Positions 24,276 to 43,231 of a stretch of DNA of 45,238 nt are shown one piece after another. Position 1 is the first letter of the stretch. Each line of letters starts with the position of its first letter. Under the pieces are notes generated by a model that saw nothing but the letters and a program-made list of their open reading frames with translations, was not told the DNA's origin and searched no databases. Both the position numbers and the translations under genes were made by a program. The stretch lies in NCBI GenBank assembly GCA_016879935.1, contig JAACJQ010000266.1:1-45238 (forward strand), written 5' to 3'. Source of the stretch: Archangiaceae bacterium. GTDB taxonomy: Bacteria; Myxococcota; Myxococcia; Myxococcales; Myxococcaceae.

Positions 24276-26603
24276 TCACTCGAGAATCGTGACTTCTCCC
24301 CGGAAGCCGTCGACCCGAATGCGCGTGCCGCTGGTGATGCGCCGGGTGCCGTGACCGACGTTCACCACCGCAGGAATGCCGTACTCGCGCGCGATGATGC
24401 TGCCGTGCGAGAGCATGCCGCCCAAGTCGACCACCAGCGCGCTCGCGGCGACGAAGTACGGCGCCCAGCCCGGGTCGGTGAACGGCGCGACGAGAATTTC
24501 GCCCGGCGCCACGCGCGTCTCTTCATCGGCACGCAGCACCACGCGCGCGATGCCCTCGACCACTCCACCGCTCACCGCGAGTCCACGGAGCACCGTCGCG
24601 TCGGGCACTGGAGGCGGCAACGCTGACGCCGGGTCGAGCACGCCCACCACCACCGGAGGCGGCGAGAGCGGCAACCACTGCCGATGCTCCGCGCGGCGCC
24701 GAGCCACCGTGCGCGCCCAACGCACCTCTGCTTTCGCCGCCAACGCCTCGCCCAGCTCACGCAATCGAAGGAAGAACACGTCGTCGGCGCGCTCCACCGT
24801 GCCGCGCTGCACGAGCCGGGATCCGACTTCCTGCAACGCGAGCCGCGACAGCCCGATGCGCCGAACACTCTCGCTCTTGAGCTGTTCGCGCAGCCGCGTG
24901 CCCCGCCGCCCACGCTCAAGCAGCGCACGCAGCACCACCCGCTTCAACGGCCCGAGCCTCGCGAACGACTCCGCCTCGACGTCGACGCGACGGCGCTCGA
25001 TGGCTGTCGTGCGCTCGGTGAGCTGGGCTCCCGAGCGCCAGGCACGCAGCGTCGCCAGCACCTGGTCTGGAGCCTCCCGCCACCGCGGCTGCGAGATGTC
25101 GAGCTCCGCCCGCGCGTGGTGCCCGTGCCGCTCCATCCACTCGTTCCACTGCGCGCGCAGCGGCGGCGTCAGCGCAGGCTCGAGCTCGACCCACGAGCTC
25201 AACGGCAACCCACGCAGCGCCTCGCCGAGCCGAAACAACGACAACGCGCTCTCGGCCGAGTCGACCCCGCCGAGCCCCGAGAAGAGTGAGGAGCCGCGCG
25301 AGCCGTCGGCATCACCGAGCCACCGCTGACACACCTGCAGCGTCGCGTTGGTGCACGCCATGCCGACCGCGATGGCCGCGAAGACGTCGTGAAACGCGGG
25401 CCCCATGCCGCCGTTGAGCCGCTCGAGATGCGCGAGCAACGCCTCGTCGGAGAGCGTCGACACCTGCACCGCCGCGAGTTCCTTCGTGTCGGCGACGATG
25501 CGCTGCACGCCCGCGTCAGGCCGCACGCCGAGGTTCAGCAGCATGCGGCCGACGAGCTTGAGCACACCGCTGACGAGCCTGCGGCCCGAGACGCGCACGA
25601 CAGGGTGCTCCGCGGCCTTCACCTTCGCGAGCCCGTCGAGAATCTCCTGCGCGTGGCCACCGAAGAGCTCGGCCGGGTTCTTCGACGCCATGCCCGGCAC
25701 GGCCTTCGAGATGGCGAGGAAGGTGTTCATGCAGAAGTAGATGCGCCCGCCGACGAGACCGATGAGGGGCGTCTGGTTCCAGTCGACGCCGAGGTCTTCG
25801 GTGAAGCTCGCGAAGAGCATGTGCACCACGCGCTCGACGACATCGAGCGTCATCGGCGTGGCCACATCGGGGAGCAGCTCGCCGGCGTTCGTGTTGCTCC
25901 ACACGAGGTGCTCGTCGCTCTGCGAGACCGAGGTGGTGATGGGCCGCGCCTGCAACCAGAAGAGCTGCCCGTCGGCCGTGAGCGCCCACTCGAGGTCGAG
26001 CGGCTCGCCGAAGTGACGCTCGAGCGCGCGCGCTTCGGTCTCGAGGCGTTCGCGGTCGGCAGCCAAGATGGGCACCGGCGCGCTGCGGCCCGACACGAGC
26101 GCCTCGCCCAACCCCTCGACGGCCTCGATGGCCATCTCTCCCCGCGCGCCTTTCGGAGCCTGCGTGAAGACGACTCCCGCGAGCCGTGGCTGCACCATCT
26201 GCTGCACGATGACCGCGAGCCGCGCTTCACCTGCGCCGACGTGGGCCCGGTAGGCCCTCACGCGCTCCGAGTGCGCCGAGGCCCAGCACGTCACGACCGC
26301 CGCTTCGAGCGCCTCGAGCGTGCACACGTTCAGCACGGTGTCGAACTGGCCGGCGAACGAGCTCACGGCGCCGTCTTCGTCGATGCCCGAGGAGCGCACC
26401 GCGACCGGTCGCCCGTCGAGCGCCACCCACGTCTGTCTCAGCGCCTCGCGCACCGGCGCAGAGAGTGTGGTCGCGAAGTGCTCGGCACTGAGTACGAAGG
26501 CCCGCGGCACCTGCGCGCCCGCGTTCAGCAGCTTCACCAGCCCGCGCGCCTTGCCACCGAGCGCGACGTCGTCAGGGAGGCCGGCCTTCAGCTCGAGCAT
26601 CAT
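24276..26603 (-). CDS. PEP-utilising dikinase-like enzyme, rifampicin-phosphotransferase architecture
   Basis: 775 residues in three parts. (1) ATP-grasp domain ~1-240: VALGGKARGLVKLL, PVAVRSSGIDEDGAVSSFAGQFDTVL (shortened here to its VRSS core) and LEWALTADGQLFWLQARPI. (2) A large middle region ~250-680 of helical character. (3) C-terminal mobile phosphohistidine domain with GGMLSHGSIIAREYGIPAVV; the phosphorylated His would be 733. This order and length fit rifampicin phosphotransferases (ATP-grasp, substrate domain, His domain), but the same layout is shared by uncharacterised family members, so a PEP-synthase-like reaction on another small molecule is possible. The ATG overlaps the stop of the TetR gene (ATGA), which argues for inducible expression. 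Confidence 0.85.
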   Translation of the reverse strand: MMLELKAGLPDDVALGGKARGLVKLLNAGAQVPRAFVLSAEHFATTLSAPVREALRQTWVALDGRPVAVRSSGIDEDGAVSSFAGQFDTVLNVCTLEALEAAVVTCWASAHSERVRAYRAHVGAGEARLAVIVQQMVQPRLAGVVFTQAPKGARGEMAIEAVEGLGEALVSGRSAPVPILAADRERLETEARALERHFGEPLDLEWALTADGQLFWLQARPITTSVSQSDEHLVWSNTNAGELLPDVATPMTLDVVERVVHMLFASFTEDLGVDWNQTPLIGLVGGRIYFCMNTFLAISKAVPGMASKNPAELFGGHAQEILDGLAKVKAAEHPVVRVSGRRLVSGVLKLVGRMLLNLGVRPDAGVQRIVADTKELAAVQVSTLSDEALLAHLERLNGGMGPAFHDVFAAIAVGMACTNATLQVCQRWLGDADGSRGSSLFSGLGGVDSAESALSLFRLGEALRGLPLSSWVELEPALTPPLRAQWNEWMERHGHHARAELDISQPRWREAPDQVLATLRAWRSGAQLTERTTAIERRRVDVEAESFARLGPLKRVVLRALLERGRRGTRLREQLKSESVRRIGLSRLALQEVGSRLVQRGTVERADDVFFLRLRELGEALAAKAEVRWARTVARRRAEHRQWLPLSPPPVVVGVLDPASALPPPVPDATVLRGLAVSGGVVEGIARVVLRADEETRVAPGEILVAPFTDPGWAPYFVAASALVVDLGGMLSHGSIIAREYGIPAVVNVGHGTRRITSGTRIRVDGFRGEVTILE

Positions 26604-28807: not shown

Positions 28808-29697
28808 TCGCCGTGCCGCTCTCCGGCGAGGAGCGCACCGAAGGCGATGCTGCCGGCCAGCCCTCCGACCAGTCCCCCGAAGGTGAGCGGGTGCAGCGTC
28901 GAGGCCGTGAGGTACTGGCTGCGGGTGACGACGAGCATGCCTGTCGTTTGCTGGAGCGCCGCCTGGTCTGCGGTGGTGCGGCTCCACACGAACCCCACGC
29001 AGCTCGCGATGAGCACGAGCCCACTCACGATGAGCCCCGCGACGAGGGCGGGCCGATGAACGGGCAGCCGCTCCGTCGGCAGGGTGAGCAGCGTCGCCCG
29101 TGGCAGCGGCGCCGGCTCTGGTGTCAGCACGACGGCAGGCTTCGCCACCGGCACCTCGGGCGTCAACGACTCGAGCGCGGGCAACTCGAGCGTCGCGTTG
29201 CCGCCAGCCGCGAGCTCGACGCACAGGGTCTTCGGCGCATGGCCTTCTGCCGTCAGCTCGACGGTCGCCAGGCCCGGGTCGACGGGCACCGTCACCGGCG
29301 AAGCAGAAGCCTCGAGCTCGTGCGAACCGACGACGAGGCGCGTGTGCGGGCGCGGAGTCGTCAGCGGCGTGAGCGTGAGCCACGCGACCTTCGGCCGGAG
29401 CAGCTCGGCCTGCCGCGCCGCATAGGTGGCCCGCGCTTCATCGCCAGCCGAGCGGGCCAGCGCCTGGGCCTGCGTGAACGCGTCGAACGCGCCGCTGGGT
29501 TTCTGCTGGTTCTGCAGACAGACGCCGAGGTTGAGCAACGTACCGATGGTCGGCTTGAGCCGACGGCTCGCTTCGAGCCTCGGGCAGGCCACGTCCCACG
29601 CGTTCACCTTCATCGCCGCGCGCGCCTCGGCGAAGAGCCTCGCAGCCTCGGCGTCGGGGTCGGCCGACAGAATTGTCATGAGCGCGACGGCAATCAT
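28804..29697 (-). CDS. TPR/PEGA-type membrane protein
   Basis: 297 residues from ATG 29697, which overlaps the stop of the FG-GAP gene (ATGA); M7 is an alternative. Residues ~12-100 look like TPR helices (EAARLFAEARAAMKVNAWD, ACPRLEASRRLKPTIGTLLNLGVC). Residues ~103-175 are a PEGA-like beta domain (TRLVVGSHELEASASPVTVPVDPG). Two hydrophobic segments follow at ~217-238 and ~272-291. This TPR plus PEGA plus TM pattern is common in myxobacteria and may act at the envelope. Function unknown. Confidence 0.8.
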   Translation of the reverse strand: MIAVALMTILSADPDAEAARLFAEARAAMKVNAWDVACPRLEASRRLKPTIGTLLNLGVCLQNQQKPSGAFDAFTQAQALARSAGDEARATYAARQAELLRPKVAWLTLTPLTTPRPHTRLVVGSHELEASASPVTVPVDPGLATVELTAEGHAPKTLCVELAAGGNATLELPALESLTPEVPVAKPAVVLTPEPAPLPRATLLTLPTERLPVHRPALVAGLIVSGLVLIASCVGFVWSRTTADQAALQQTTGMLVVTRSQYLTASTLHPLTFGGLVGGLAGSIAFGALLAGERHGD

Positions 29698-32102
29698 TGG
29701 CCACTCCAGAGACAGACCTGCGGCGGAAGAGACGAGGCGGTGGTGATGGCGATGACGTCGGGCTTCAGGTTGCGCCCGAAGTCAGCCGTTCTGAGCCGAC
29801 CGACCCCGGTGCGCGCGACGGTACCGGTCGCGAGACGCAGCGGGCCGGAGGTGCCCGCGAGGCTCCACTGAAGCTGGAGCACGCCCGTGCTCGAGTCGAC
29901 CGTCATCACGTCTCGGCGCGAGTCGCCGTTGAGGTCTGCGAAGCCGATGGCCTGCGGTGCGGATGTGAAGGGCAACGTCAGCGGCGCAGCCGTGGGTTGA
30001 CGCGACGGAGTGCCCGGCGCCAACGCCCAGCTCGAGCTCGCGAAGAGCACCAGGTCGTCGATGCCGTCACCGTTCCAGTCGGTCGCCTCGAGCCGGGCGC
30101 GCGGGTACGGCAGCACGCGAAAGTCGGTGCCTGCGTCGGGCAACACGAAGGTGCCTGCGCCCTGATTGAAGATGAGTCGCGTCTCGTTCGCGTTCGAGGC
30201 AGCGACGTCGAGCAGCCCGTCGTGGTCGAAGTCTCCGAGGGCGAGGTCGGTGAGGCTCGCCGTCGAAGAGCCGGTCTTGAAGCTCGAGACCGACGAGAAG
30301 CCACCGTCAGCTGCGCTCAGCAGAATCGACACGCGCCCCTGGTTGTTGGGGTTGGCGATGGCGAGGTCTGGCCGGCAGTCGTTGTTGAAGTCTCCGACGT
30401 GCGCGCGGTCGCTGGAGATGCTGTTGGGCGTGAGCGACCGGCGCGTGGGGCCCGAGAAGCCCGCGGCTCCGCGGTTGAGCCAGGTCTGCACCTCGTCGCC
30501 GTTCACCAGCACGATGTCGGACAGACCGTTGGAGTCGAGGTCGATGGCGACCACGTCGTCGTAGTACGGCCCGAGGAAGAAGCCGGCGTCGTCCTGCTCG
30601 AACACCAGAACGCCGGCGTCGACGAAGCCACCGTCGAGGCTGCGCCAGAGCTGCACGCCTCCCACGGTCGGGGTCGAGACGTCGGTCACCACGTCCGGCA
30701 CTCCGTCTCCAGAGAAGTCGCCCACGTCGAGGTTGCGGGCGCCCAGGCCCAGCGGGTGGCACGAGACCGTGAAGTTCGTCACTGGCGCGGAGGCCGTCGC
30801 GCGCCCACCACAGACTCCGCCGACCGTGATGCTGAGCTGAAAGGCCCCGGCCTGCATCGCCGTGAGGCTGTCGACGACGATGCGAACGGTCTGGCCAGCG
30901 ACCAGGTTCACCGTGAGGGCTGAGGCGAGCCCATCTCCGGAGTCGTCGTCGCACGCGAGCTCGCTGCAGGTCGGCGACGTGAGGGTGAGGATGGTGTCGA
31001 AGGCGCTGCCGTCAGTGTCGAAGATGAACGTCCCGGTGAAAGGCGCGGTCCACGAGAAGACTCGCTCGGCGCCACTCGGCGCGAAGGATGGAGTGCACGA
31101 GGGCCGAACCGCGCCCACGCCCGCGGTCAGCATCGAAGAGACGATGAGGCCGGTGCCGCTCCGGAGTTCGCCTGTGCTGCAAGTCGCGGAGCCGCCGCCG
31201 GTCGCGATGCCACCGCCTGTCGCGATGCCGCCGCCTGTCGCGATGCCGCCGCCCGTGGCGATGCCGCCTCCCGTCGCGATGCCGCCGCCCGTCGCGATGC
31301 CACCACCTGTCGCGATGCCGCCACCTGTCGCGATGCCGCCGCCGATCGCGAAGCCGCCGCCCGTCGCGATGCCGCCTCCTGACGAAGAGCCCCCTCCTGT
31401 CGCAAAACCACCGCCCGTCGCGATGCCGCCTCCCGTCGCGATGCCGCCGCCCGTCGCGATGCCGCCTCCAGTCGCGATGCCGCCTCCTGTCGCGATGCCG
31501 CCGCCCGTCGAGATGCCGCCTCCCGTCGCGGTGCCGCCGCCTGTCGCGATTCCGCCTCCTGCAACGCCGCCTCCCGTCGCAACGCCACCTCCCGTCGCAA
31601 CGCCACCACCCGTCGCGATGCCACCACCCGTCGCGATGCCGCCACCCGTCGCGATGCTGCCGCCCGTCGCAACGCCGCCGCCCGTCGCAACGCCGCCGCC
31701 TGTCGCAACGCCGCCGCCCGTCACAACGCCTCCGCCACCGCCTGTCGCGATTCCGCCACCCGTTCCGGTGCCGCCGCCGAACGAAGAGCCTCCACCCGCA
31801 GCGCCACCCCCCGACTGCTCAACTCCGCCCGCCACACACCTGCCCAACTCGCAATGCTGATCGCCCGCGCACGATTCCCGCTTCGACTCGAACGCGCACA
31901 CCCCATCGCGGCACGTGCCGAGACCGAACAACTGAACCGTCTCGAGGTTCACGCACCGCGACGCAGGTGGCGCCGCACAGTCCTGTACGCTCCGACACGC
32001 CACGGGAGCTGCGCAGTCGGCACCTTCACACGCGAACTGGAGCGAGTTCGCATCGGGCAGGCACGCCGCCAGGAAACAGAACGAGAGCTTGAAGAGACGC
32101 AT
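29694..32102 (-). CDS. Lipoprotein with Gly-rich stalk, PPC-like domain and FG-GAP propeller
   Basis: 802 residues. Lipobox FLAAC (Cys14). A Cys-rich segment (~20-95) precedes a long Gly-rich stalk of about 30 GGGxAT hexapeptides. Then a PPC-like beta domain (FTGTFIFDTDGSAFDTIL, CDDDSGDG) and about seven FG-GAP/VCBS blades with calcium-loop motifs: DFSGDGVPDVV, DLDSNGLSDIV, DFNNDCRPDLA, DFDHDGLLDVA, DWNGDGIDDLV, DLNGDSRRDVM. It is an outer-surface or secreted propeller. Its stop overlaps the PEGA-type gene. Ligand unknown. Confidence 0.9.
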   Translation of the reverse strand: MRLFKLSFCFLAACLPDANSLQFACEGADCAAPVACRSVQDCAAPPASRCVNLETVQLFGLGTCRDGVCAFESKRESCAGDQHCELGRCVAGGVEQSGGGAAGGGSSFGGGTGTGGGIATGGGGGVVTGGGVATGGGVATGGGVATGGSIATGGGIATGGGIATGGGVATGGGVATGGGVAGGGIATGGGTATGGGISTGGGIATGGGIATGGGIATGGGIATGGGIATGGGFATGGGSSSGGGIATGGGFAIGGGIATGGGIATGGGIATGGGIATGGGIATGGGIATGGGIATGGGIATGGGSATCSTGELRSGTGLIVSSMLTAGVGAVRPSCTPSFAPSGAERVFSWTAPFTGTFIFDTDGSAFDTILTLTSPTCSELACDDDSGDGLASALTVNLVAGQTVRIVVDSLTAMQAGAFQLSITVGGVCGGRATASAPVTNFTVSCHPLGLGARNLDVGDFSGDGVPDVVTDVSTPTVGGVQLWRSLDGGFVDAGVLVFEQDDAGFFLGPYYDDVVAIDLDSNGLSDIVLVNGDEVQTWLNRGAAGFSGPTRRSLTPNSISSDRAHVGDFNNDCRPDLAIANPNNQGRVSILLSAADGGFSSVSSFKTGSSTASLTDLALGDFDHDGLLDVAASNANETRLIFNQGAGTFVLPDAGTDFRVLPYPRARLEATDWNGDGIDDLVLFASSSWALAPGTPSRQPTAAPLTLPFTSAPQAIGFADLNGDSRRDVMTVDSSTGVLQLQWSLAGTSGPLRLATGTVARTGVGRLRTADFGRNLKPDVIAITTASSLPPQVCLWSGQ
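31190..31790 (-). repeat. 18-bp minisatellite encoding GGGxAT units
   Basis: A plus-strand unit close to CCGCCTCCCGTCGCGATG is repeated some 30 times over ~600 bases, encoding GGG-I/V-A-T. Divergent units (SSSGGG, FAIGGG, one five-residue unit) interrupt it. The unit resembles the 18-bp unit at 21535-21712, with the same length and phase. Confidence 0.9.
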
Positions 32103-32183: not shown

Positions 32184-35100
32184 TCAGGGGAGCGTGCTCA
32201 ACGTTCCATCGAACTTCACGGCCCGAAACGGCTGGCCACTGTCGGTCGAGACGATGAGCCATTTCACGTCACGCGCCATCAACTCGCTCTTCTGCGCAGC
32301 GGTGGTCGCCGGGTCTCTGAACGGGTCGAACAAGAAGTCTTCGGTGAAGTTGTGGTGCTGCGGCCGGTACGTCTGCGCGAAGTCGGCCGTGAGCCGCAGC
32401 GGCTGCGTAGTGAGCCCGGTGATGTCGGTGCCCACCCATTTCACGTTCGGCGCGGTGTAGCCGGCGCTGGGGCCGCTGGGGTTGGGCGGCCAGTAGAACT
32501 TCGTCGTCACGCTGATGCCGCCCTTGTCGAACGTGCGCGTCTGCAGCGAGTGCCGGCTGGTGATGACCTCGTCCTCCGGGCACGTCTGCAGCACGACGTC
32601 GTCCTGGAGTGTGGTGGTGGGCGCTCCGGGGAACTGGGGAATCGCGAGCTGCGGCTGCGCCCAGGTGACGTGCACCCAGAAGAGCAGCTCCTGCGCGGTG
32701 ATGATGGGTGGCTGGGTGGCGTTCACCAGACGTGGCACCTCGACCGAGAGCTGCACCGTACGCGCACGGGCGCCGTTGCCGAACGAGAAGGCGTCGAGCA
32801 GCGTGTTCATGTCCTGCGAGTGCGCGAAGCCGGGCCAGCCCGAAGGCGCGCCACTGATGGTCTGCACACTGTCTCCGTCGACGAGTTCGAGCGTGGGTGA
32901 CCCCAAGAGCGACTGCAGGCGCTCGGCGTCGGTGAGCAGCACGTCACGCAGCTGCGCGTCGAGCCGGAGCCGCGTGCGGTGAATCGACAGCAGGTTCGAG
33001 TTCTCTCCCTGAAAAGTGCACAGCCGGCGCGGGCGATTGAGCACGAAGGGCACCACGGTGTTCGCGGTCGACGGCACGGGCAGCGGGCGCACCTGCTTCA
33101 CCCACAACTTTCCGGGCAGCGGCACCTGCTTCTTGAACTCGAAGTCGAGCGCGAAGGGAGCCGTCACCGTCGGCGCATGGGCCGCCGCCACGCGGTCGAG
33201 GAGCACGCCCAGCTTCTTGTAGTCGTTGTCGGCGCCCTGCTCGTCCATCACCCAGCGGCCGAGCGGAATGCGGCTCGACGGGCGCTCGAGGAAGAAGGTC
33301 CACGAGTTGGCGGCGTAGCTCCAGCCGCGCAGCACCTCGGGCGTCGACTCACCAGTGGGGTTGGTGACGGAGTCGGCGCCGAGCTGCGTGACGACGTCGA
33401 GCGTCTTCGAGGTGGGGCCGCTCCAGACGTACGTCGCAACGCCGTTGGCGAGCTCTTCGTCGTCGGGCACCGAAGCGTGCACGAGCACCGCCATGCCGAC
33501 CTGCGACTCGTTCACGCGGTGGCGCAGACGCTCGAGGTACGCGTTGTCGTTGTAGAAGCTGGCGAACACCCGGCGCAGCGCCAGGAAGACGCCACGCTCG
33601 TCCTTCTTTCCCGGCGTGCAGCGGCTGGGGCCCACCGTGTCCTGGTCGTCGTCGTCGGCGAGACAGCCGGTGAAGCTGTCGTAGAGCCCGGCGCCGGTGA
33701 ACTGCGCGGTGTCTTCCACGTTCGTCGAGGAGCGAAACCGGATGCCCTTCGTCGGGTCGAAGCCGGTGAGCGCCGCACGAATGCCGGCCTGCGCAGCGCT
33801 CGAGAACGTCGCCTCGGCCTCGATGAAGGCGCGCACCTGCGCGAGCGTGGCCCGGGTGACGGCGAGGTTCTGCGGAGGCCATGTCGAGATGGGCGCCAGA
33901 CGCTGGTCGAGCTCTGCGCGCAGCGTGCGACCCGTCGAGACCTGCTGGGCCATGGCGTCGTCCCACGCGTCGAACGAGAGCGCGACGGCCGGGTACGAGT
34001 CGTTGGGAAGGGCGCGGCGGAGCAGGCCGTAGTTGGCCGCCTTGCCACCGAAGAACCGCGCGTCGGCCACCTGCAACGCATCGGTGCTGGCCGAGTACGC
34101 ACCGCGCGTTTGTTTCGCCGGCAGGTTGAGCGCAGGCGGCTGTTTGGTGTTCAGCAATTGCGTGCGCACCGTCGGCGCGAGGCCGGTCGCGTCGAACACG
34201 TCGAACGTGCAGGAGCCGGTGGCGGTCGACACGCGCACCATCACCTGCTTGCCGTCGAGGGCGGCGAGCTTCGTCACGTCGGCCTCGTGCGGCGTGAAGA
34301 CGAAGGGAATGTCGAGCGTGGTGGCGAGAATGGCGACGTGCGAGTTCGGCGTCGCGGCGGTGAGCGAGACGATGCCTGCGACGGGCGGCACCTCGGCGGG
34401 AATGCGCTCGGTGACGAGAACGTCGTTCACCGTGAGCCGGCCGTCGGCGTACGCGGCGTCGAGGTCGCCAGGCGCGACGTGCACGAGCTTTCCGAGCGCC
34501 CAGCCCATCGCGTAGCAGACGCTGCCGCGCGTCCACCGGTCGGGCGTCGAGAGCGGAATGCCGTTCGTCGCGAGCCACGCGCGGTCGCGTTCGGCGCTCG
34601 CCTGCTGCTCGAAGGTGGGCATGTAGAAGGCCTGCAGCCCCGGCTGCGCATCGAGGGAGCTCTTCACGAGGTCGAAGACGCGCTTCACCATCTCCTTCGG
34701 GTACGGGTCGGCGCGCACGAGCTGAATGCCGACCTCGTTGAAGTTCGCGTTCGTCAGCACTGCGCCGGTGATGGCCTGCTGCCCTGCTGCGTGCAGCGAG
34801 ACCGCGTCGAACTGCGGCACCGTCATGCCGACGAACGGGTCGAGGCGCGCGACGGCGAACGGCGCGTGGAGCGGGTACGTGCGGCCGTCCTGGAAGTAGA
34901 CCTTCGTCGGGTCGCGCATCAGCACGGTGAACTTCACCCAGAGCACCTCGGCCGAATCCTGCGCGAACGGGTCGAAGGGAATGGTGATGCGGTTCTTCCA
35001 CGAGGCGTGCGGCGTGATGGTGATGGGCGAGATGGGTACGGGCCACTCGAAGCCAGCGTCGCCTGCGCCAGAACCAGCATCGGGAACGATGACGCCCGCA

Positions 35101-35192
35101 TCAGGGTCGAGGCCGGCATCGGTGACGGGTTGTGGTGCGGGACAGGCGGCGAACACGAGCAGCGCGAGGACTCCGAAGCGGGCGCGAAACAT
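32184..35192 (-). CDS. Lipoprotein with phosphohistidine and ATP-grasp (glucan-water-dikinase-like) domains
   Basis: 1002 residues from ATG 35192, chosen because it begins a clean lipoprotein signal (LLVFAAC, Cys17); the upstream frame is not protein-like. A DAG-rich tether follows. Residue His285 sits in SLTAATPNSHVAILATTLDIPFVF, a mobile phosphohistidine-type motif. After it comes an ATP-grasp region: FGGKAANYGLL (381-391), RFRSSTNVEDTAQFTGAGLYD (485-505, quoted by its RSSTNVED core), and LWVKQVRPL near 690. Having the His domain before the ATP-grasp domain is the order of plant glucan-water dikinases. The C-terminal ~250 residues are a beta-rich region. It would sit outside the cytoplasm, where ATP is not expected, which is odd. 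Confidence 0.85.
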   Translation of the reverse strand: MFRARFGVLALLVFAACPAPQPVTDAGLDPDAGVIVPDAGSGAGDAGFEWPVPISPITITPHASWKNRITIPFDPFAQDSAEVLWVKFTVLMRDPTKVYFQDGRTYPLHAPFAVARLDPFVGMTVPQFDAVSLHAAGQQAITGAVLTNANFNEVGIQLVRADPYPKEMVKRVFDLVKSSLDAQPGLQAFYMPTFEQQASAERDRAWLATNGIPLSTPDRWTRGSVCYAMGWALGKLVHVAPGDLDAAYADGRLTVNDVLVTERIPAEVPPVAGIVSLTAATPNSHVAILATTLDIPFVFTPHEADVTKLAALDGKQVMVRVSTATGSCTFDVFDATGLAPTVRTQLLNTKQPPALNLPAKQTRGAYSASTDALQVADARFFGGKAANYGLLRRALPNDSYPAVALSFDAWDDAMAQQVSTGRTLRAELDQRLAPISTWPPQNLAVTRATLAQVRAFIEAEATFSSAAQAGIRAALTGFDPTKGIRFRSSTNVEDTAQFTGAGLYDSFTGCLADDDDQDTVGPSRCTPGKKDERGVFLALRRVFASFYNDNAYLERLRHRVNESQVGMAVLVHASVPDDEELANGVATYVWSGPTSKTLDVVTQLGADSVTNPTGESTPEVLRGWSYAANSWTFFLERPSSRIPLGRWVMDEQGADNDYKKLGVLLDRVAAAHAPTVTAPFALDFEFKKQVPLPGKLWVKQVRPLPVPSTANTVVPFVLNRPRRLCTFQGENSNLLSIHRTRLRLDAQLRDVLLTDAERLQSLLGSPTLELVDGDSVQTISGAPSGWPGFAHSQDMNTLLDAFSFGNGARARTVQLSVEVPRLVNATQPPIITAQELLFWVHVTWAQPQLAIPQFPGAPTTTLQDDVVLQTCPEDEVITSRHSLQTRTFDKGGISVTTKFYWPPNPSGPSAGYTAPNVKWVGTDITGLTTQPLRLTADFAQTYRPQHHNFTEDFLFDPFRDPATTAAQKSELMARDVKWLIVSTDSGQPFRAVKFDGTLSTLP

Positions 35193-36527: not shown

Positions 36528-37226
36528 ATGAGCGCCGTCACCTTCCGAACCGCCACCATCAACGTGAAGTCGAACCCCGAGATGCGCCAGACGAGCGTGG
36601 TGCACGACGTTCGCAAAGCGTCGCATCAAGCGAGCATCATCGGCTGGCAGGAGATCGAACCCGAGCGCTACCGTCAGGCGATTCGCGACCTGCCTCCGAA
36701 CTGGAGCCACTTCATGCCGAAGGGCAGCGCGAACCCCATCTCGTGGCGCAACGACATCTGGAAGAAGACGGGCGGAGACTCCATCACCACGCACAAGGGC
36801 CTCGCGGGCGTGACGCCGCACCGGAACATCACCTGGGTGAAGCTGAAGCACCGCGAGACGGGGAAAGAGATCGTGCGAATCAACACGCACCTGATCAGCG
36901 GCGCGTGGAGCGAGCACAAGCCCACCACCGAGTGGCGCCGCAAGCAGTGGCGTGAGCACATGTCGCAGCTCAACGACCTCGTGCGGCACTTCGAGAAGCA
37001 GGGCGCCGAGGTCATCGTCGGCGGCGACTTCAACCGCGACAGCTTCAAGGTGCTGGGCGACCACGTTCGCTACGACAACAAGCTCAACGTCGGCACGCAC
37101 GGCCACAGCACGCTCGACTACCTCATGCACACGAAGGGGCCCGAGCTGGTGAACCTCGGCACGCGCGTGCAGGGCGGCTACGCGACCGACCACGACGCGG
37201 TGGTTGGCCGTTACCGTCTGCGCTGA
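36528..37226 (+). CDS. Endonuclease/exonuclease/phosphatase (EEP) family protein
   Basis: 232 residues. Family motifs are in order: ATINVK (strand 1 with the metal-near Asn), WQEIEPERY (catalytic Glu), INTHL, VIVGGDFNRD (catalytic Asp and Asn) and the C-terminal YATDHDAVVGRY (Asp-His pair). The protein has no signal peptide, so it should act in the cytoplasm or be released by another route. Substrate cannot be told: the family includes AP endonucleases, phosphoinositide phosphatases and nucleases. At 232 residues it is near the lower end of the family. Confidence 0.88.
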   Translation: MSAVTFRTATINVKSNPEMRQTSVVHDVRKASHQASIIGWQEIEPERYRQAIRDLPPNWSHFMPKGSANPISWRNDIWKKTGGDSITTHKGLAGVTPHRNITWVKLKHRETGKEIVRINTHLISGAWSEHKPTTEWRRKQWREHMSQLNDLVRHFEKQGAEVIVGGDFNRDSFKVLGDHVRYDNKLNVGTHGHSTLDYLMHTKGPELVNLGTRVQGGYATDHDAVVGRYRLR

Positions 37227-37287
37227 GCCGACCTCGGCAGAATGCCTATATCCACCGGGGCGGCGCGGGTGGGTACGGTCTCGGCCC

Positions 37288-39789
37288 ATGCCCAGTCCGT
37301 CTCGCATCGCCCTCTGCGCGCTCGCGCTCGCGCTCATCACCGCCTGCTCCCCGGAGTCTCAGCGCTGCACACCGGGAAAGTCCGAGCTCTGCGCGTGCCC
37401 GGGTGGGCGCCAGGGCGCTCAGGTCTGTGAACCGTCGGGCCTCACCTTCACCACCTGCGACTGCGGTTCTGGCGCTTCGGGCGGCGGCAGCGCTGGCGGC
37501 TCGTCGGGTGGAGGCACGGCGGCGTGCACCCTCGCTTGCGGCACCAACGGCCGCTGCGTCGACACCGGCTCCACCCAGACCTGCGCGTGCAACACCGGCT
37601 ACTCAGGCGTGCTCTGCACGCAATGCGCGGCCGGTTTTCAGGACAATGATGGCAACGGCACCTGTCTGCCGACGTGCGCGACGCTCGGCCTCACCTGTTC
37701 TGCACATGGCAGCTGTACCGAACAGAGCGGCACCGCGACCTGCACCTGCGCGCCTGCCTACAGCGGGCTCAACTGCGCCACCTGCGCCGCGGGGTTCCAG
37801 GACGCCGATGGTGACGGCGTCTGCCGCCCCTCGTGTACCAGCGCGACGTGCTCGGGCCACGGCACCTGCGCCGACTCCACGGGCCAGACCGTGTGCACCT
37901 GCGCTCCCGGCTACACGGGCGCGACCTGCACCACCTGCAGCTCTGGTTTTCAGGACAACGACGGCAACGGCACCTGCTCGGCGTCGTGCACGGCGAGCAC
38001 CTGCGCTGGCCACGGAACGTGCGCCGACACCTCCGGCACCGCCACCTGCACCTGCGCGACCGGCCACACTGGCGCCACGTGCTCGACGTGCGCCACCGGC
38101 TTTCAGGACAACGACGGCGACGGCAGCTGCCTTGCGGCGTGCACCACCTCGAGCTGCAACGGGCACGGCACCTGCGCAGACGCGACGGGGTCGGCGACGT
38201 GCACCTGCGCCACCGGCTACACGGGCCTCGGCTGCTCGACCTGCGCGACCGGGTTTCAGGACAACGACGGCAACGGGTCGTGCCTGGCGAGCTGCGCGAC
38301 GACGACGTGCGAGAGCAACTCGTTCTGCCGAGACAGCGCGGGGGCCGCGACCTGCGTCTGTCACAGCGGCTACTCGGCGGCGGCAGACGGCGGCGCCGGC
38401 TGCACCTGGTCGGGCGGGCTTCGTGACCCCTCGCTCATCGACGCACCCGCGGGGCAGTGGCAGGTCGACGGTGGCTGGCAGTGGAACCCCAACGACGGCG
38501 GCGTGCTCACCGTCACCATGTGCGCCCACCAGGGCTCCTTCATTCAGCGAAACGTGGTGATGCCTCCCGCGTCGACGGAGCCACTCGCGCTGGTGATGAC
38601 GCATCAGGGCTCGAGCGGCACCCAGGGCTTCGCCGTGCGCGTCGGTCAGTCGGTGGTGATGACCGAAGCGCTCCAGAGCTTCGCGCAGACACGCGCGTAC
38701 TGCCTCGGCGAGGGCGCGATGACGAACGGCCCCACCTCGGTCGAGGTCCGCACCGCCACCATCGACTCCAGCGGCTGCTTCTTCCAGCCGGCCACGCTCG
38801 AGCAGCTCGAGCTCGTTCCCGCGGGTGGGCTCTGCCCTGCCATCGGCGCGGTGACGAACGGCGACTTCGAAGGTGGTGGTGGCTGGCTGCTGTCGGGCGG
38901 CGCCTCCATCGTGCCCGGCGCCATCGACTCGAGCCGCGGCCTGCGAATGAGCATGGCCACCGAGTGCGACACGGCGAGCGCAGCGACGATGTTCTCGGCC
39001 CCGCTGGCCTCTTCGCGCTCGAACGCGGCGCTGCGCTTCAAGGTTCGTGGCACCAGCGGCTCGGTGCTCGAGGTCTCCAGCGGCCTCTCGCTCAGTTCGG
39101 CGGCCCGCCTCGCGCGCATCACCACGCCGGGCGCCCTCGTCACCCAGACCGTCTGCCTGCCGTCGGCGCTCGCCGGCAGCGTGCCGTTCGTCTGGTTCAC
39201 GCTTCGGCACGTAGGCCAGACGAGCTGCGCGACGCCCGAGGTGCGCACCGTCGAGCTCGACGACGTTCAGCTCGTCTCGGACCCGTCGTGTCCCGGTGGC
39301 GACGTGGTCAACGGCGGCTTCGAGATGCCTGATGGGCTGCCGTGGGTCGTCAGCACCAACACTCCGCTCGTGTCGAACGCAGGCGTGCTCGTCAGCCCCG
39401 CGCAGGCCCGGGGCGGCTGGGCGTTCTGGCGCGCGACGACGGGAGCGTGCAGCAGCTCGACGACGGAGCAGCTGGTGAAGGTGCCGGCGGTCTCGGCTTC
39501 GGGAGCAGGCCCGGCGGTGCGGTTCTTCTACCGGCGCTCGGGCGGTGGTGGCACGGTGAACCTCGCGCTCCAGAACGGCTCCTTCGTCTGGTCCGGCACC
39601 GTGCTCCTGTCACCCGCGCTGAACTGGACGCGCCAGGTCGTGTGCCTGCCATCGTCACGCGCTGGGCTCCCCGTCTCGCTGACGTTCTTGCAGAGCGGCG
39701 GCCCGGGAACGTGCGGCTCGGCCACCGTCACCGAGCGGCTCGACCTCGACGACGTCGAAGTCACCACCGATTCTTCCTGTCCTCCCTGA
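37288..39789 (+). CDS. EGF-repeat lipoprotein with two C-terminal beta domains
   Basis: 833 residues from ATG 37288; the lipobox is LITAC. After a Gly/Ser linker, residues ~75-380 hold six EGF-like modules (for example [18 protein letters not shown]) separated by five nearly identical [11 protein letters not shown] spacers, whose D-N-D-G-N-G resembles a calcium-binding loop. The C-terminal ~450 residues hold two jelly-roll-like modules, starting at [15 protein letters not shown] and [15 protein letters not shown], of the type found in carbohydrate-binding proteins. It is a large outer-surface protein, probably for adhesion or binding. Near-identical modules suggest recent internal duplication. 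Confidence 0.9.
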
Positions 39790-40591: not shown

Positions 40592-43129
40592 TCACCAACT
40601 CTGCGGCACGAGCTTCTCCTGCTTCATGAACGCGACGAGCGACTCGATGCTCTGCGGGCCGATGTACAGGCCCATCACCGTGCCGCGACGGTCGACCGTG
40701 TCGAGGTCGCCCTGCTTCTTCTCGGCGTACTTCCACTCGTCGTTCACCGGCATGTCCTTCACGCGCTTCACGAGGGCCTCGAGCTGGCCCTTGTCGAGCG
40801 AGTCGAGCTGCTTCAGCAACGCGGCGGGCGTCTGGTGCAGCGCCGCGGCGAGCTGTGGAATCACCGAGCCCACTGGCCGCAGGTCTTTCTGCAACACGTC
40901 GGACAACGCGTCGGCGGTGCCAGGCTTGAGACCGGCGTAGTCACGCAGGAACCGCTCGGTCTCCTTCTCGGCGGCGACCTCGGCCTCCTTCGCGGGGTTC
41001 TTGCCGAAGACGTACTTCGCGACCGTCGAGCCAATCATCAGCGCCGCGCCGAACGCCTGGCCGCCGGGCACCGCCATCATCATCGCGCCGAGCCCCGCGT
41101 AGATGCTCATCGCGCCGTCGAACGACTTGCCCGAGTACATCTCCTGGAAGCCCTTCGCGAGGTCGAGCGCACCGAGCACCGGGCCGGCGGCACCCGCGAG
41201 CTTCTCGAACACCGCCGCGTCCTTCGACATGAACGAGACCAGCTCGCTGCCGAACTTCCCCGTCTCGATGATCTGCTTCATCTGGTCGACGGTGCCCTTG
41301 TCGCCGAAGTTGGCCCAGCCCTCGATGAGCCCGGGCGCGGTGAGCAGCAGCCCGAGCGCCTTCGTCGTCTTGAACTCCTCACGCTTCAGCGTACCGACCG
41401 CCGCCTTCTCGGCCGCGAGCCGCTGCGTGGGCGACAGGTTCGAGTTGGCGATCTCGTTCATGCTGCCGACGAACGCGTCGACCTTCTCGTGGGGAATGCC
41501 GAGCAGCGCGGCGTTCTTCCTGACCAGGTTCGGCAGCGCCTCGGCGCCCTTCGTGAACGAGGTGTAGGTGATCATTCCCTTCGCGATGGCGTTGACGAGC
41601 TTGTCGGGCTTCTCGATCAACTTCTTCGCCTTCTCGGCGCTCTCGGCGAACTCGGTGAGGAAGTTCGGCTCGCCCTTCTTCTGCAGCTCGAAGGCCCGGT
41701 AGAGCTCGGCCTTGCCGGCCTTCGTCTCGAAGAGCGCCTCGCCGTGGCCCATCACGAGGCCCAGCTCTCCCGTCGCCTGCACGCCCGCCATGCCCGGAGC
41801 GGCCTTCGCCAGCCCATCGAGCGTGCCTGCCGTCGCGGCCTCGAGCACGCCGAGGTACGGCTTCGCGGCCGCTTCGTAGGCGGCGTACTCGGCCGCGTGC
41901 TTCGCCTTGAAGTCGTCGTAGTACTTCTGCAGCGCGGGCTGCGGCACGGCCTGACCGAAGCCGAGCGTGATGCGCGCGACCTCGGCGTTGAGCGCGTCGA
42001 CCTTCTTCTTCGCGCCCTCGAACTTCTTCCGAAGGCTGGCCATCGAGGTGGCGGCCTCTTCCGTCAACGCGGCGGCAGCCTGCGTCTTGCCGGCCTTCAC
42101 GAGCGCGGCGGAGAAGCCGGCGAGCTCCTTCGCGCCCTCGCCACGCGAGAACTTCGCGGTGAAGGCGTTGAGCAGGAAGCTGTCTTCGCCGGTGGTGCCC
42201 TTCGCCATCAGCGAGAGCAGCTGCTCCCGCGCGGCGCCGGTGGTGTGTTCGACGGCGTTGCCCAGCTCACGGGCTGCGCTCGGGTCGGTGTTCGCGTCGT
42301 TGATCATTCGCGACAGCTCGGGGCCGGCCTTCGACAACAACAGCAGCTGCTGCTTCTCGTCGGCGCCATCGAGCTGATCAGCGAACACGGTCGCGCCGTT
42401 GGCGCTGCCAGCGCGCAGGGCCGAGCGAATCGAGGCGAGGTCGAAGTCGGCGGCCTGGTCGGGCGTAAAGGGAGCGGGGGCTCCGAGCAGCGCGATCTGC
42501 TTCTCGCGCGAGAGGCTGGCCGCGTCTTGCAGCGAGGCCTGGCGCTCGCCATCGGCCGACTTCCAGCGGTTCGCCTCGAAGGTGCTCTGCTGACGGCCGG
42601 TGAGCCGCGAGCGCAGCACGTCGACGCCTGCCTCGAGGGTCGAGAGCGCGGCGGTCTCCTTCGCCAGCTTCGCCTTCGCGGCGTCGCGCTGCGCGAGGAG
42701 CCTGGGTGACGGGTGCTTCGACGACTTCACCTTCGCCTCGAGCGTGGCGAGCGCGTCGGCGGCGCCCTGCCGGTCCTTCGCCTTCGCGTCTCGTTCGGCG
42801 ACGGCACGCTCGAGCCCGCTGGCGAGGTTCGCCGCCTTCTGCTTCAGCTTCGGGCCCTGCAGCGTGCTCACCGACGTGTCGAGCGCCGCCGTGAGCTTGA
42901 ACACCTTGTCGTTCGCCTTCTCGAGCTGGTCACGGAGCGCCGACAGCTTCTTCTCGAGCGCAGGCTTCTGCGCGGCAGGCGCGGCGTTGCGAGCGGCCAC
43001 GGCGGTCTGCACGCGCTGCTTCAGGTTGTCGGCCGTCGCAGTCGCGGCCTCGAGCTGGCGTTCGAGCGACCCGAGCGACGCGGTCGAGGGCGGAGCGATG
43101 GGCTTCGGAGCAATCTTCGGAGGGCTCAT
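40592..43129 (-). CDS. Large coiled-coil protein with a hydrophobic hairpin, unrecognised
   Basis: 845 residues from ATG 43129. Residues ~1-35 are Pro-rich and unordered. Residues ~20-190 form a coiled coil (SLERQLEAATATADNLKQRV and similar). The middle is helical and rich in Ala/Lys. At ~673-710 a Gly-rich hydrophobic stretch (SIYAGLGAMMMAVPGGQ and AFGAALMIGSTVAKYVFG) could be a membrane hairpin. There is no signal peptide. The C-terminus is helical and soluble. This general layout is seen in pore-forming or secreted effector/translocator proteins, but no family motif is recognised. No immunity-like gene is evident next to it. Function unknown. Confidence 0.78.
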   Translation of the reverse strand: MSPPKIAPKPIAPPSTASLGSLERQLEAATATADNLKQRVQTAVAARNAAPAAQKPALEKKLSALRDQLEKANDKVFKLTAALDTSVSTLQGPKLKQKAANLASGLERAVAERDAKAKDRQGAADALATLEAKVKSSKHPSPRLLAQRDAAKAKLAKETAALSTLEAGVDVLRSRLTGRQQSTFEANRWKSADGERQASLQDAASLSREKQIALLGAPAPFTPDQAADFDLASIRSALRAGSANGATVFADQLDGADEKQQLLLLSKAGPELSRMINDANTDPSAARELGNAVEHTTGAAREQLLSLMAKGTTGEDSFLLNAFTAKFSRGEGAKELAGFSAALVKAGKTQAAAALTEEAATSMASLRKKFEGAKKKVDALNAEVARITLGFGQAVPQPALQKYYDDFKAKHAAEYAAYEAAAKPYLGVLEAATAGTLDGLAKAAPGMAGVQATGELGLVMGHGEALFETKAGKAELYRAFELQKKGEPNFLTEFAESAEKAKKLIEKPDKLVNAIAKGMITYTSFTKGAEALPNLVRKNAALLGIPHEKVDAFVGSMNEIANSNLSPTQRLAAEKAAVGTLKREEFKTTKALGLLLTAPGLIEGWANFGDKGTVDQMKQIIETGKFGSELVSFMSKDAAVFEKLAGAAGPVLGALDLAKGFQEMYSGKSFDGAMSIYAGLGAMMMAVPGGQAFGAALMIGSTVAKYVFGKNPAKEAEVAAEKETERFLRDYAGLKPGTADALSDVLQKDLRPVGSVIPQLAAALHQTPAALLKQLDSLDKGQLEALVKRVKDMPVNDEWKYAEKKQGDLDTVDRRGTVMGLYIGPQSIESLVAFMKQEKLVPQSW

Positions 43130-43231
43130 GCCCGTGTTCTCGAAAGGCCCCGCGAGAACCGGACATCGCCTCTGCAACCTCGCGCACTCACTCGGGTCTG
43201 CGCGAGAGGCGTGCGACTGGGATTCTCGGAT

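Follow-up and report, generated by a model that had tools for sequence, protein, structure and literature searches.

RESULTS

Gene and domain architecture

The window, as we call the whole 45,238-nucleotide stretch that was analysed (contig JAACJQ010000266.1 of an Archangiaceae bacterium), carries on its minus strand, at positions 32184 to 35192, a stop-free frame for a protein of 1,002 amino acids, P0001, the features of which all lie on that strand. Residues 1 to 17 (35142 to 35192) make up a predicted signal peptide (MFRARFGVLALLVFAAC), which is closed by an acceptable lipobox, LVFAAC, ending in Cys17, and residues 18 to 55 (35028 to 35141) form a low-complexity, DAG-rich tether. There follow an N-terminal domain (residues 58 to 222; 34527 to 35021), a phosphohistidine swivel domain (residues 223 to 340; 34173 to 34526), an ATP-grasp domain (residues 364 to 708; 33069 to 34103), and a C-terminal region (residues 709 to 1002; 32187 to 33068). 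The predicted phosphate-carrying histidine, His285 (34338 to 34340), lies within the motif TPNSHVAILA of the swivel domain, and the ATP-grasp domain contains the motifs FGGKAAN (residues 381 to 387) and RSSTNVED (residues 487 to 494) and, directly after Ser506, a Cys-bracketed acidic insertion (residues 510 to 525; 33618 to 33665; CLADDDDQDTVGPSRC). A preliminary description of this DNA, made from its letters alone, had pointed out the lipobox, the DAG tether, and these three motifs; all were found as it had placed them, and its residue numbering is correct.

The gene can be taken as real, since an orthologue from the same family is 68% identical to P0001 and the pair shows a dN of 0.24 against a dS of 0.65 over the aligned part past the tether. 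By Pfam, the ATP-grasp domain matched PPDK_N at residues 381 to 586 (E 4.7e-11; 43 bits against a cut-off of 27), and the swivel domain gave two sub-cut-off matches, to the PEP-utilizers mobile domain at residues 269 to 306 (E 0.002; 18.1 bits, cut-off 23.1) and to GWD1_pHisD (PF22973) at residues 256 to 324 (E 0.02; 15 bits, cut-off 27). Weak as it is by Pfam, the phosphohistidine domain is made firm by the retention of His285 in relatives and by the swivel-type domain seen in the structural model. No PEP/pyruvate-binding domain was matched after the swivel by Pfam at E ≤ 1.

Predicted structure

An AlphaFold2 model built on alignment A2 (45 sequences, from the window and the species scan described below) reached a mean pLDDT of 88.5 and a pTM of 0.82, with pLDDT below 50 for residues 1 to 54. 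The 19 best PDB matches found by Foldseek, all at E < 0.001, were to rifampin phosphotransferase (RPH), PEP synthase, and PPDK. With VIA-align, residues 365 to 705 of the model superimposed on PEP synthase 2ols with a Z of 27.4 (287 residues, rmsd 2.6), the ATP-grasp domain gave a Z of 27.3 to RPH 5hv1 and of 20.8 to PPDK 1dik, and swivel residues 223 to 335 gave a Z of 9.5 to 2hi6. In the comparison with PPDK and plant glucan-water dikinase (GWD) structures that had been proposed earlier, PEP synthase and RPH matched at a Z of about 27; the comparators included no GWD structure. A profile search of PDB sequences also led to PEP synthases (2ols, E 3.4e-21), with the swivel region aligned weakly and in reversed order. 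The single sequence of P0001 returned chance matches only, so that a profile was needed to find PDB relatives.

The remaining two parts of the protein proved more singular. Modelled alone, the N-terminal domain reached a pLDDT of 95.0, yet it had no match in Pfam or among PDB sequences, no Foldseek match under E 0.001 (best E 0.037), and no VIA Z above 3.9; the absence of a PDB counterpart does not prove a novel fold. The C-terminal region is beta-rich by the secondary structure of the model and, judged from this and a 25-sequence alignment, specific to the group of relatives that we call subfamily A; compared with PDB sequences, it had no relative besides a chance-level dockerin match.

Relatives of P0001

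Two more relatives of P0001 are encoded in the window's own genome, and matches occur in 13 of 40 related genomes and in 59 of 195 Myxococcota genomes; subfamily A matches (E < 1e-170) are confined to 7 of the 195. Alignment A1 was scanned against one genome per species (84,980 species), and the best 80 of 359 relatives were analysed. Subfamily A accounts for 36 of these 80 (L028 to L063), which share 35 to 47% identity with P0001, are mostly near full-length, and come from Planctomycetota, Verrucomicrobiota, one Hydrogenedentota record, and one record labelled “bacterium.” The other 44 are shorter, most of them stopping at a KQARP motif near residue 705. In a tree, P0001 grouped with full support with L108 and L109, which come from the same Myxococcota family, and the Verrucomicrobiota and Planctomycetota rows fell mostly into their own groups, above a base of subfamily A that lacked resolution. 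Viral contigs, queried with P0001, yielded no relative.

Conserved residues

Residue conservation was read from a 104-row alignment comprising P0001, 17 relatives from the window's genome and other Myxococcota, the 80 from the species scan, and 6 Myxococcota orthologues; it leaves out L023, which has the ordinary PEP-synthase order, L002, L003, and L004, which are the genes of L009 and L010, and a second L060 fragment. His285 is histidine in 102 rows and a gap in 2; Lys384 is lysine in 102, arginine in 1, and a gap in 1; and Arg487, Glu493, and Asp494 are each kept in 102 rows, with 2 gaps. Toward the end of the ATP-grasp domain, Glu685 (98 Glu, 1 Asp, 5 gaps), Gln700 (99 Gln, 1 Arg, 4 gaps), and Arg702 (100 rows, 4 gaps) are nearly as constant. 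So are three polar residues of the N-terminal domain, namely, Lys87 (99 rows, 1 Leu, 4 gaps), His109 (100 rows, 1 Asp, 3 gaps), and Asp162 (97 rows, 2 Glu, 1 each of Ala, Ser, and Asn, 2 gaps). The species scan was keyed on one pattern within the ATP-grasp domain, so part of the conservation of F498, A501, G502, and S506 follows from the search itself; the remaining residues are unconditioned.

The four ATP-phosphate-contacting residues of RPH, Lys22, Arg117, Thr136, and Glu297, all have aligned counterparts in P0001 (Lys384, Arg487, Ser506, and Glu685), and the equivalent of RPH His825, matched by domain, is His285. In RPH, Lys22 is reported to be essential, K22A abolishing activity, and His825 to be the phosphate carrier; R117A and T136V keep the ATP pyrophosphatase and lose transfer, so that Arg117 and Thr136 are required for the full reaction, and E297A is still active, Glu297 being dispensable (PMC4844700). 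Conservation of Glu685 is therefore, by itself, no proof of need. The preliminary description had advised checking the ATP-contact residues in homologues and had named loss of the Mg-ATP residues in homologues with the same lipobox as the finding that would speak against it. We find the opposite: these residues are conserved almost throughout the 104 rows, and the lipobox homologues keep them.

Export and cysteines

Inspected by eye, 10 of 18 Myxococcota rows (L023 apart), P0001 included, have a lipobox, which in L009, L016, and L017 depends on a GTG or TTG start; 2 have a Sec signal, 5 are signal-less, and 1 is incomplete. Among the six subfamily A orthologues from Myxococcota, five (L108, L109, L110, L112, and L113) carry the lipobox at the same place and the sixth (L111) is cut by the contig end. 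P0001 thus has the lipobox signal peptide of a bacterial lipoprotein, retained in all five readable orthologues, and its earlier reading as an exported lipoprotein stands, as predicted from sequence. The tethers that follow the lipobox vary (ATGGG, DAG, DGDG, and EGEG), as would be expected for spacers retained for length rather than composition. By a crude test, 32 of 36 subfamily A loci and 21 of 44 other loci have a signal, compared with 128 of the 356 neighbouring ORFs that are 250 amino acids or longer. With no signal in 5 of the 18 Myxococcota rows and 23 of the 44 non-A loci, the wider family is not solely extracytoplasmic. Signal-less L012 to L015 and L027 have basic, Pro/Ala-rich N termini, and the window gene at 40592 to 43177 starts similarly.

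Sec signals predominate among the relatives from Planctomycetota and Verrucomicrobiota, some of which have dockerin or lamin-tail domains, each found by Pfam in 4 of 36 subfamily A members; dockerin-like repeats were also seen by eye at the C-terminal end of many Planctomycetota members. Among the 44 non-A relatives, fn3, PKD, cadherin-like, PPC, and Calx-beta domains were found by Pfam in one member each. Carbohydrate-binding Pfam families were found neither in P0001 nor, at E ≤ 0.01, among the domains listed for the 36 and 44 relatives.

Within subfamily A, 41 of 43 rows have Cys510 and 40 of 41 have Cys525; the acidic loop that these cysteines bracket adjoins the nucleotide site and, by eye, resembles a calcium-binding repeat. 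Cysteines were further compared between hand-picked groups covering 79 of the 104 rows. The shorter-type lipoproteins (n = 19) all have two N-terminal cysteines beyond the lipobox Cys, and 16 of them also have a CxxC; the signal-less rows (n = 17) have no conserved Cys pair, with 1.4 cysteines per core (for the 16 rows of sufficient length) versus 4.7 and 3.5 in the exported groups. In L010, L016 to L018, L021, L024, and similar lipoproteins, the FNGAGL loop beside the alpha-phosphate contact is replaced by FPCAGC, the CxxC of which is perhaps a disulfide or redox switch.

Gene neighbourhood

Nine window neighbours were searched for in six orthologue loci without a match, and since no window neighbour recurs there, synteny gives no guide to the acceptor. 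Neighbouring lipoprotein genes were common only to the shorter-type Myxococcota lipoproteins, one kind having a marginal DUF1554 match. Four subfamily A loci (L036, L046, L053, and L062) have a CotH kinase gene within 6 kb, where 0.54 was expected (Poisson P of 0.002; 22 of 36 loci; 302 CotH genes in 132.2 Mb), a value weaker than it looks because the 22 loci were picked post hoc and three of the four (L046, L053, and L062) share a single 7-row clade of the tree. The sole CotH gene in the window's genome (L114, 1147 to 2886, plus strand) encodes a lipoprotein with a glycine-rich tether. Lamin-tail-type domains occur inside the dikinase protein itself in L058, L061, L062, and L063 (by phmmer), and the same domain stands beside CotH in neighbouring proteins.

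Within the window, the next downstream gene (29694 to 32102, minus strand), 81 bases off, encodes an 802-amino-acid lipoprotein-like product with a long ATGGG tether and FG-GAP repeats, and a gene at 37204 to 39789 (plus strand) encodes a lipoprotein-like protein with EGF-type repeats. A second PPDK-superfamily protein is encoded at 24276 to 26603 (minus strand), with the usual order, ATP-grasp first and swivel last (PPDK_N, E 9.7e-43; PEP-utilizers, E 4.5e-22); its best NCBIfam matches are PEP synthase-like, all of them sub-cut-off.

DISCUSSION

In the current study, we analysed a gene whose product is, by its sequence, a conserved and exported protein with the predicted hallmarks of the superfamily that includes PPDK, PEP synthase, RPH, and GWD: a PPDK-type ATP-grasp domain and a swivel domain with a phosphate-carrying histidine. 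PPDK-type dikinases are regarded as cell-interior enzymes, and the known PEP synthase and PPDK members are cytoplasmic or organellar. In the literature searched, from which subscription journals were largely absent, no dikinase of the PPDK or GWD type was described as exported.

By the sequence and fold tests applied here, P0001 is predicted to work like a dikinase of the PPDK superfamily, and by the same tests it is not a GWD. Like the small-molecule dikinases RPH, HpeHI, and PpsAB, it combines an ATP-grasp domain (Z of 27.3 to 5hv1) with a swivel bearing the catalytic histidine and with the ATP-phosphate residues; unlike them, it has the swivel ahead of the ATP-grasp domain and a different third domain, and it is predicted to be exported and lipid anchored. 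HpeHI is described as using ATP, with AMP as the main product (PMC12167813). With PEP synthase and PPDK, P0001 shares the ATP-grasp fold (Z of 27.4 to 2ols and of 20.8 to 1dik) and the phosphohistidine domain, but its order is reversed and it has no PEP/pyruvate-binding barrel by Pfam. CotH, the spore-coat-type kinase encoded near some relatives and present as a tethered lipoprotein in this genome, is a different family; P0001 has no match to the CotH domain (PF08757) at E ≤ 1.

Plant GWDs place the phosphohistidine domain before the ATP-grasp domain and carry N-terminal starch-binding domains of the CBM45 type. The preliminary description had likened P0001 to these enzymes; the domain order that it invoked is indeed present, by Pfam and in the model, and there is weak GWD1_pHisD similarity. 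Beyond order, the likeness does not hold: P0001 is a bacterial exported lipoprotein by prediction, has a different N-terminal domain and no starch-binding Pfam domain, and finds its nearest structures in PEP synthase and RPH. With GWD1_pHisD at 15 bits against a cut-off of 27 and no starch-binding domain, strict GWD membership was rejected. The histidine of GWD is reported to be essential (PMC12892837).

We lean toward the view that P0001 is an extracytoplasmic, lipid-anchored dikinase that passes phosphate from ATP to His285 and on to an acceptor; sequence and model together make this, in our judgment, a somewhat better than even proposition. The protein would be exported by the Sec pathway and tethered to the envelope by lipidation at Cys17. 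By homology, the ATP-grasp domain would bind Mg-ATP outside the cytoplasm and His285 would take up phosphate, leaving AMP. The swivel could then move this phosphate to another transfer site, which the N-terminal domain most probably provides and for which Lys87, His109, and Asp162 are the candidate residues; there an acceptor, speculatively a polysaccharide or some other molecule of the surface or of prey, may be phosphorylated. ATP is scarce outside cells, and its doubtful supply there is the strongest argument against catalysis; lysing prey or kin, or release by living cells, are speculative sources. Release of ATP by bacteria has been described (PMC7432876).

The doubtful supply of ATP, together with the adhesion-type domains of some relatives, might suggest that the protein is exported and noncatalytic, its ATP-grasp and swivel domains acting outside the cell to sense or bind nucleotides or polyphosphate. 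We consider this unlikely, if still worth weighing: a protein that does no more than bind should have little reason to retain the swivel histidine, the retention of which is the strongest argument for catalysis, and His285 is present in 102 of 102 ungapped rows, with Lys384, Glu685, Gln700, and Arg702 kept almost without exception. The invariance of the catalytic residues likewise lessens the likelihood of a repurposed binding fold, which had been floated earlier, and on sequence grounds P0001 is probably catalytic. The same doubt about ATP at this location could instead be met by an active exported phosphotransferase with another donor, such as polyphosphate or pyrophosphate plus AMP, or by a reversed reaction that yields ATP, PPDK being reportedly reversible (PMC5371819). 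However, the equivalents of three RPH residues that make contact with the nucleotide phosphates (Lys22, Arg117, and Thr136) are all retained, and we rate such a donor as improbable.

A bacterial GWD in the strict sense, phosphorylating alpha-glucans outside the cell, would account for the His-then-ATP-grasp order and for the GWD1_pHisD matches in 4 of 44 non-A relatives (E ≤ 0.01; best E 9.8e-6). It seems to us quite improbable given that no scanned member has a starch-binding domain, that P0001 itself falls below the GWD1_pHisD cut-off, and that its N-terminal domain has no Pfam match. Least credible, and in our view very improbable indeed, is an ordinary cytoplasmic enzyme whose lipobox is due to chance or a miscalled start. 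The signal-less relatives L012 to L015 and L027 lend it some colour, but the lipobox recurs in 5 of 5 readable Myxococcota orthologues, in most with a clear tether, and Sec signals as well as conserved pairs of cysteines are seen among the PVC relatives.

A family that is exported, anchored, or furnished with surface-type domains and yet keeps its catalytic machinery would imply ATP-driven phosphorylation on the exterior of environmental bacteria, myxobacteria included. Intact machinery that appears to be exported, together with related exported proteins in several phyla, makes some unstudied extracellular phosphate transfer look likely. A more specific and tentative possibility, which we would not yet favour, is that several phyla possess an undescribed extracytoplasmic relay, in which an exported or anchored dikinase uses released ATP and its swivel histidine to phosphorylate glycans, matrix, or prey via the domain of unmatched fold. 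Occurring family-wide and keeping three polar residues almost unchanged, that N-terminal domain clearly merits structure determination. One further relative, L075 from Hellea, has a twin-arginine-like N-terminal signal (SRRAVLTSLGAGALPA), which would mean that a folded enzyme is exported.
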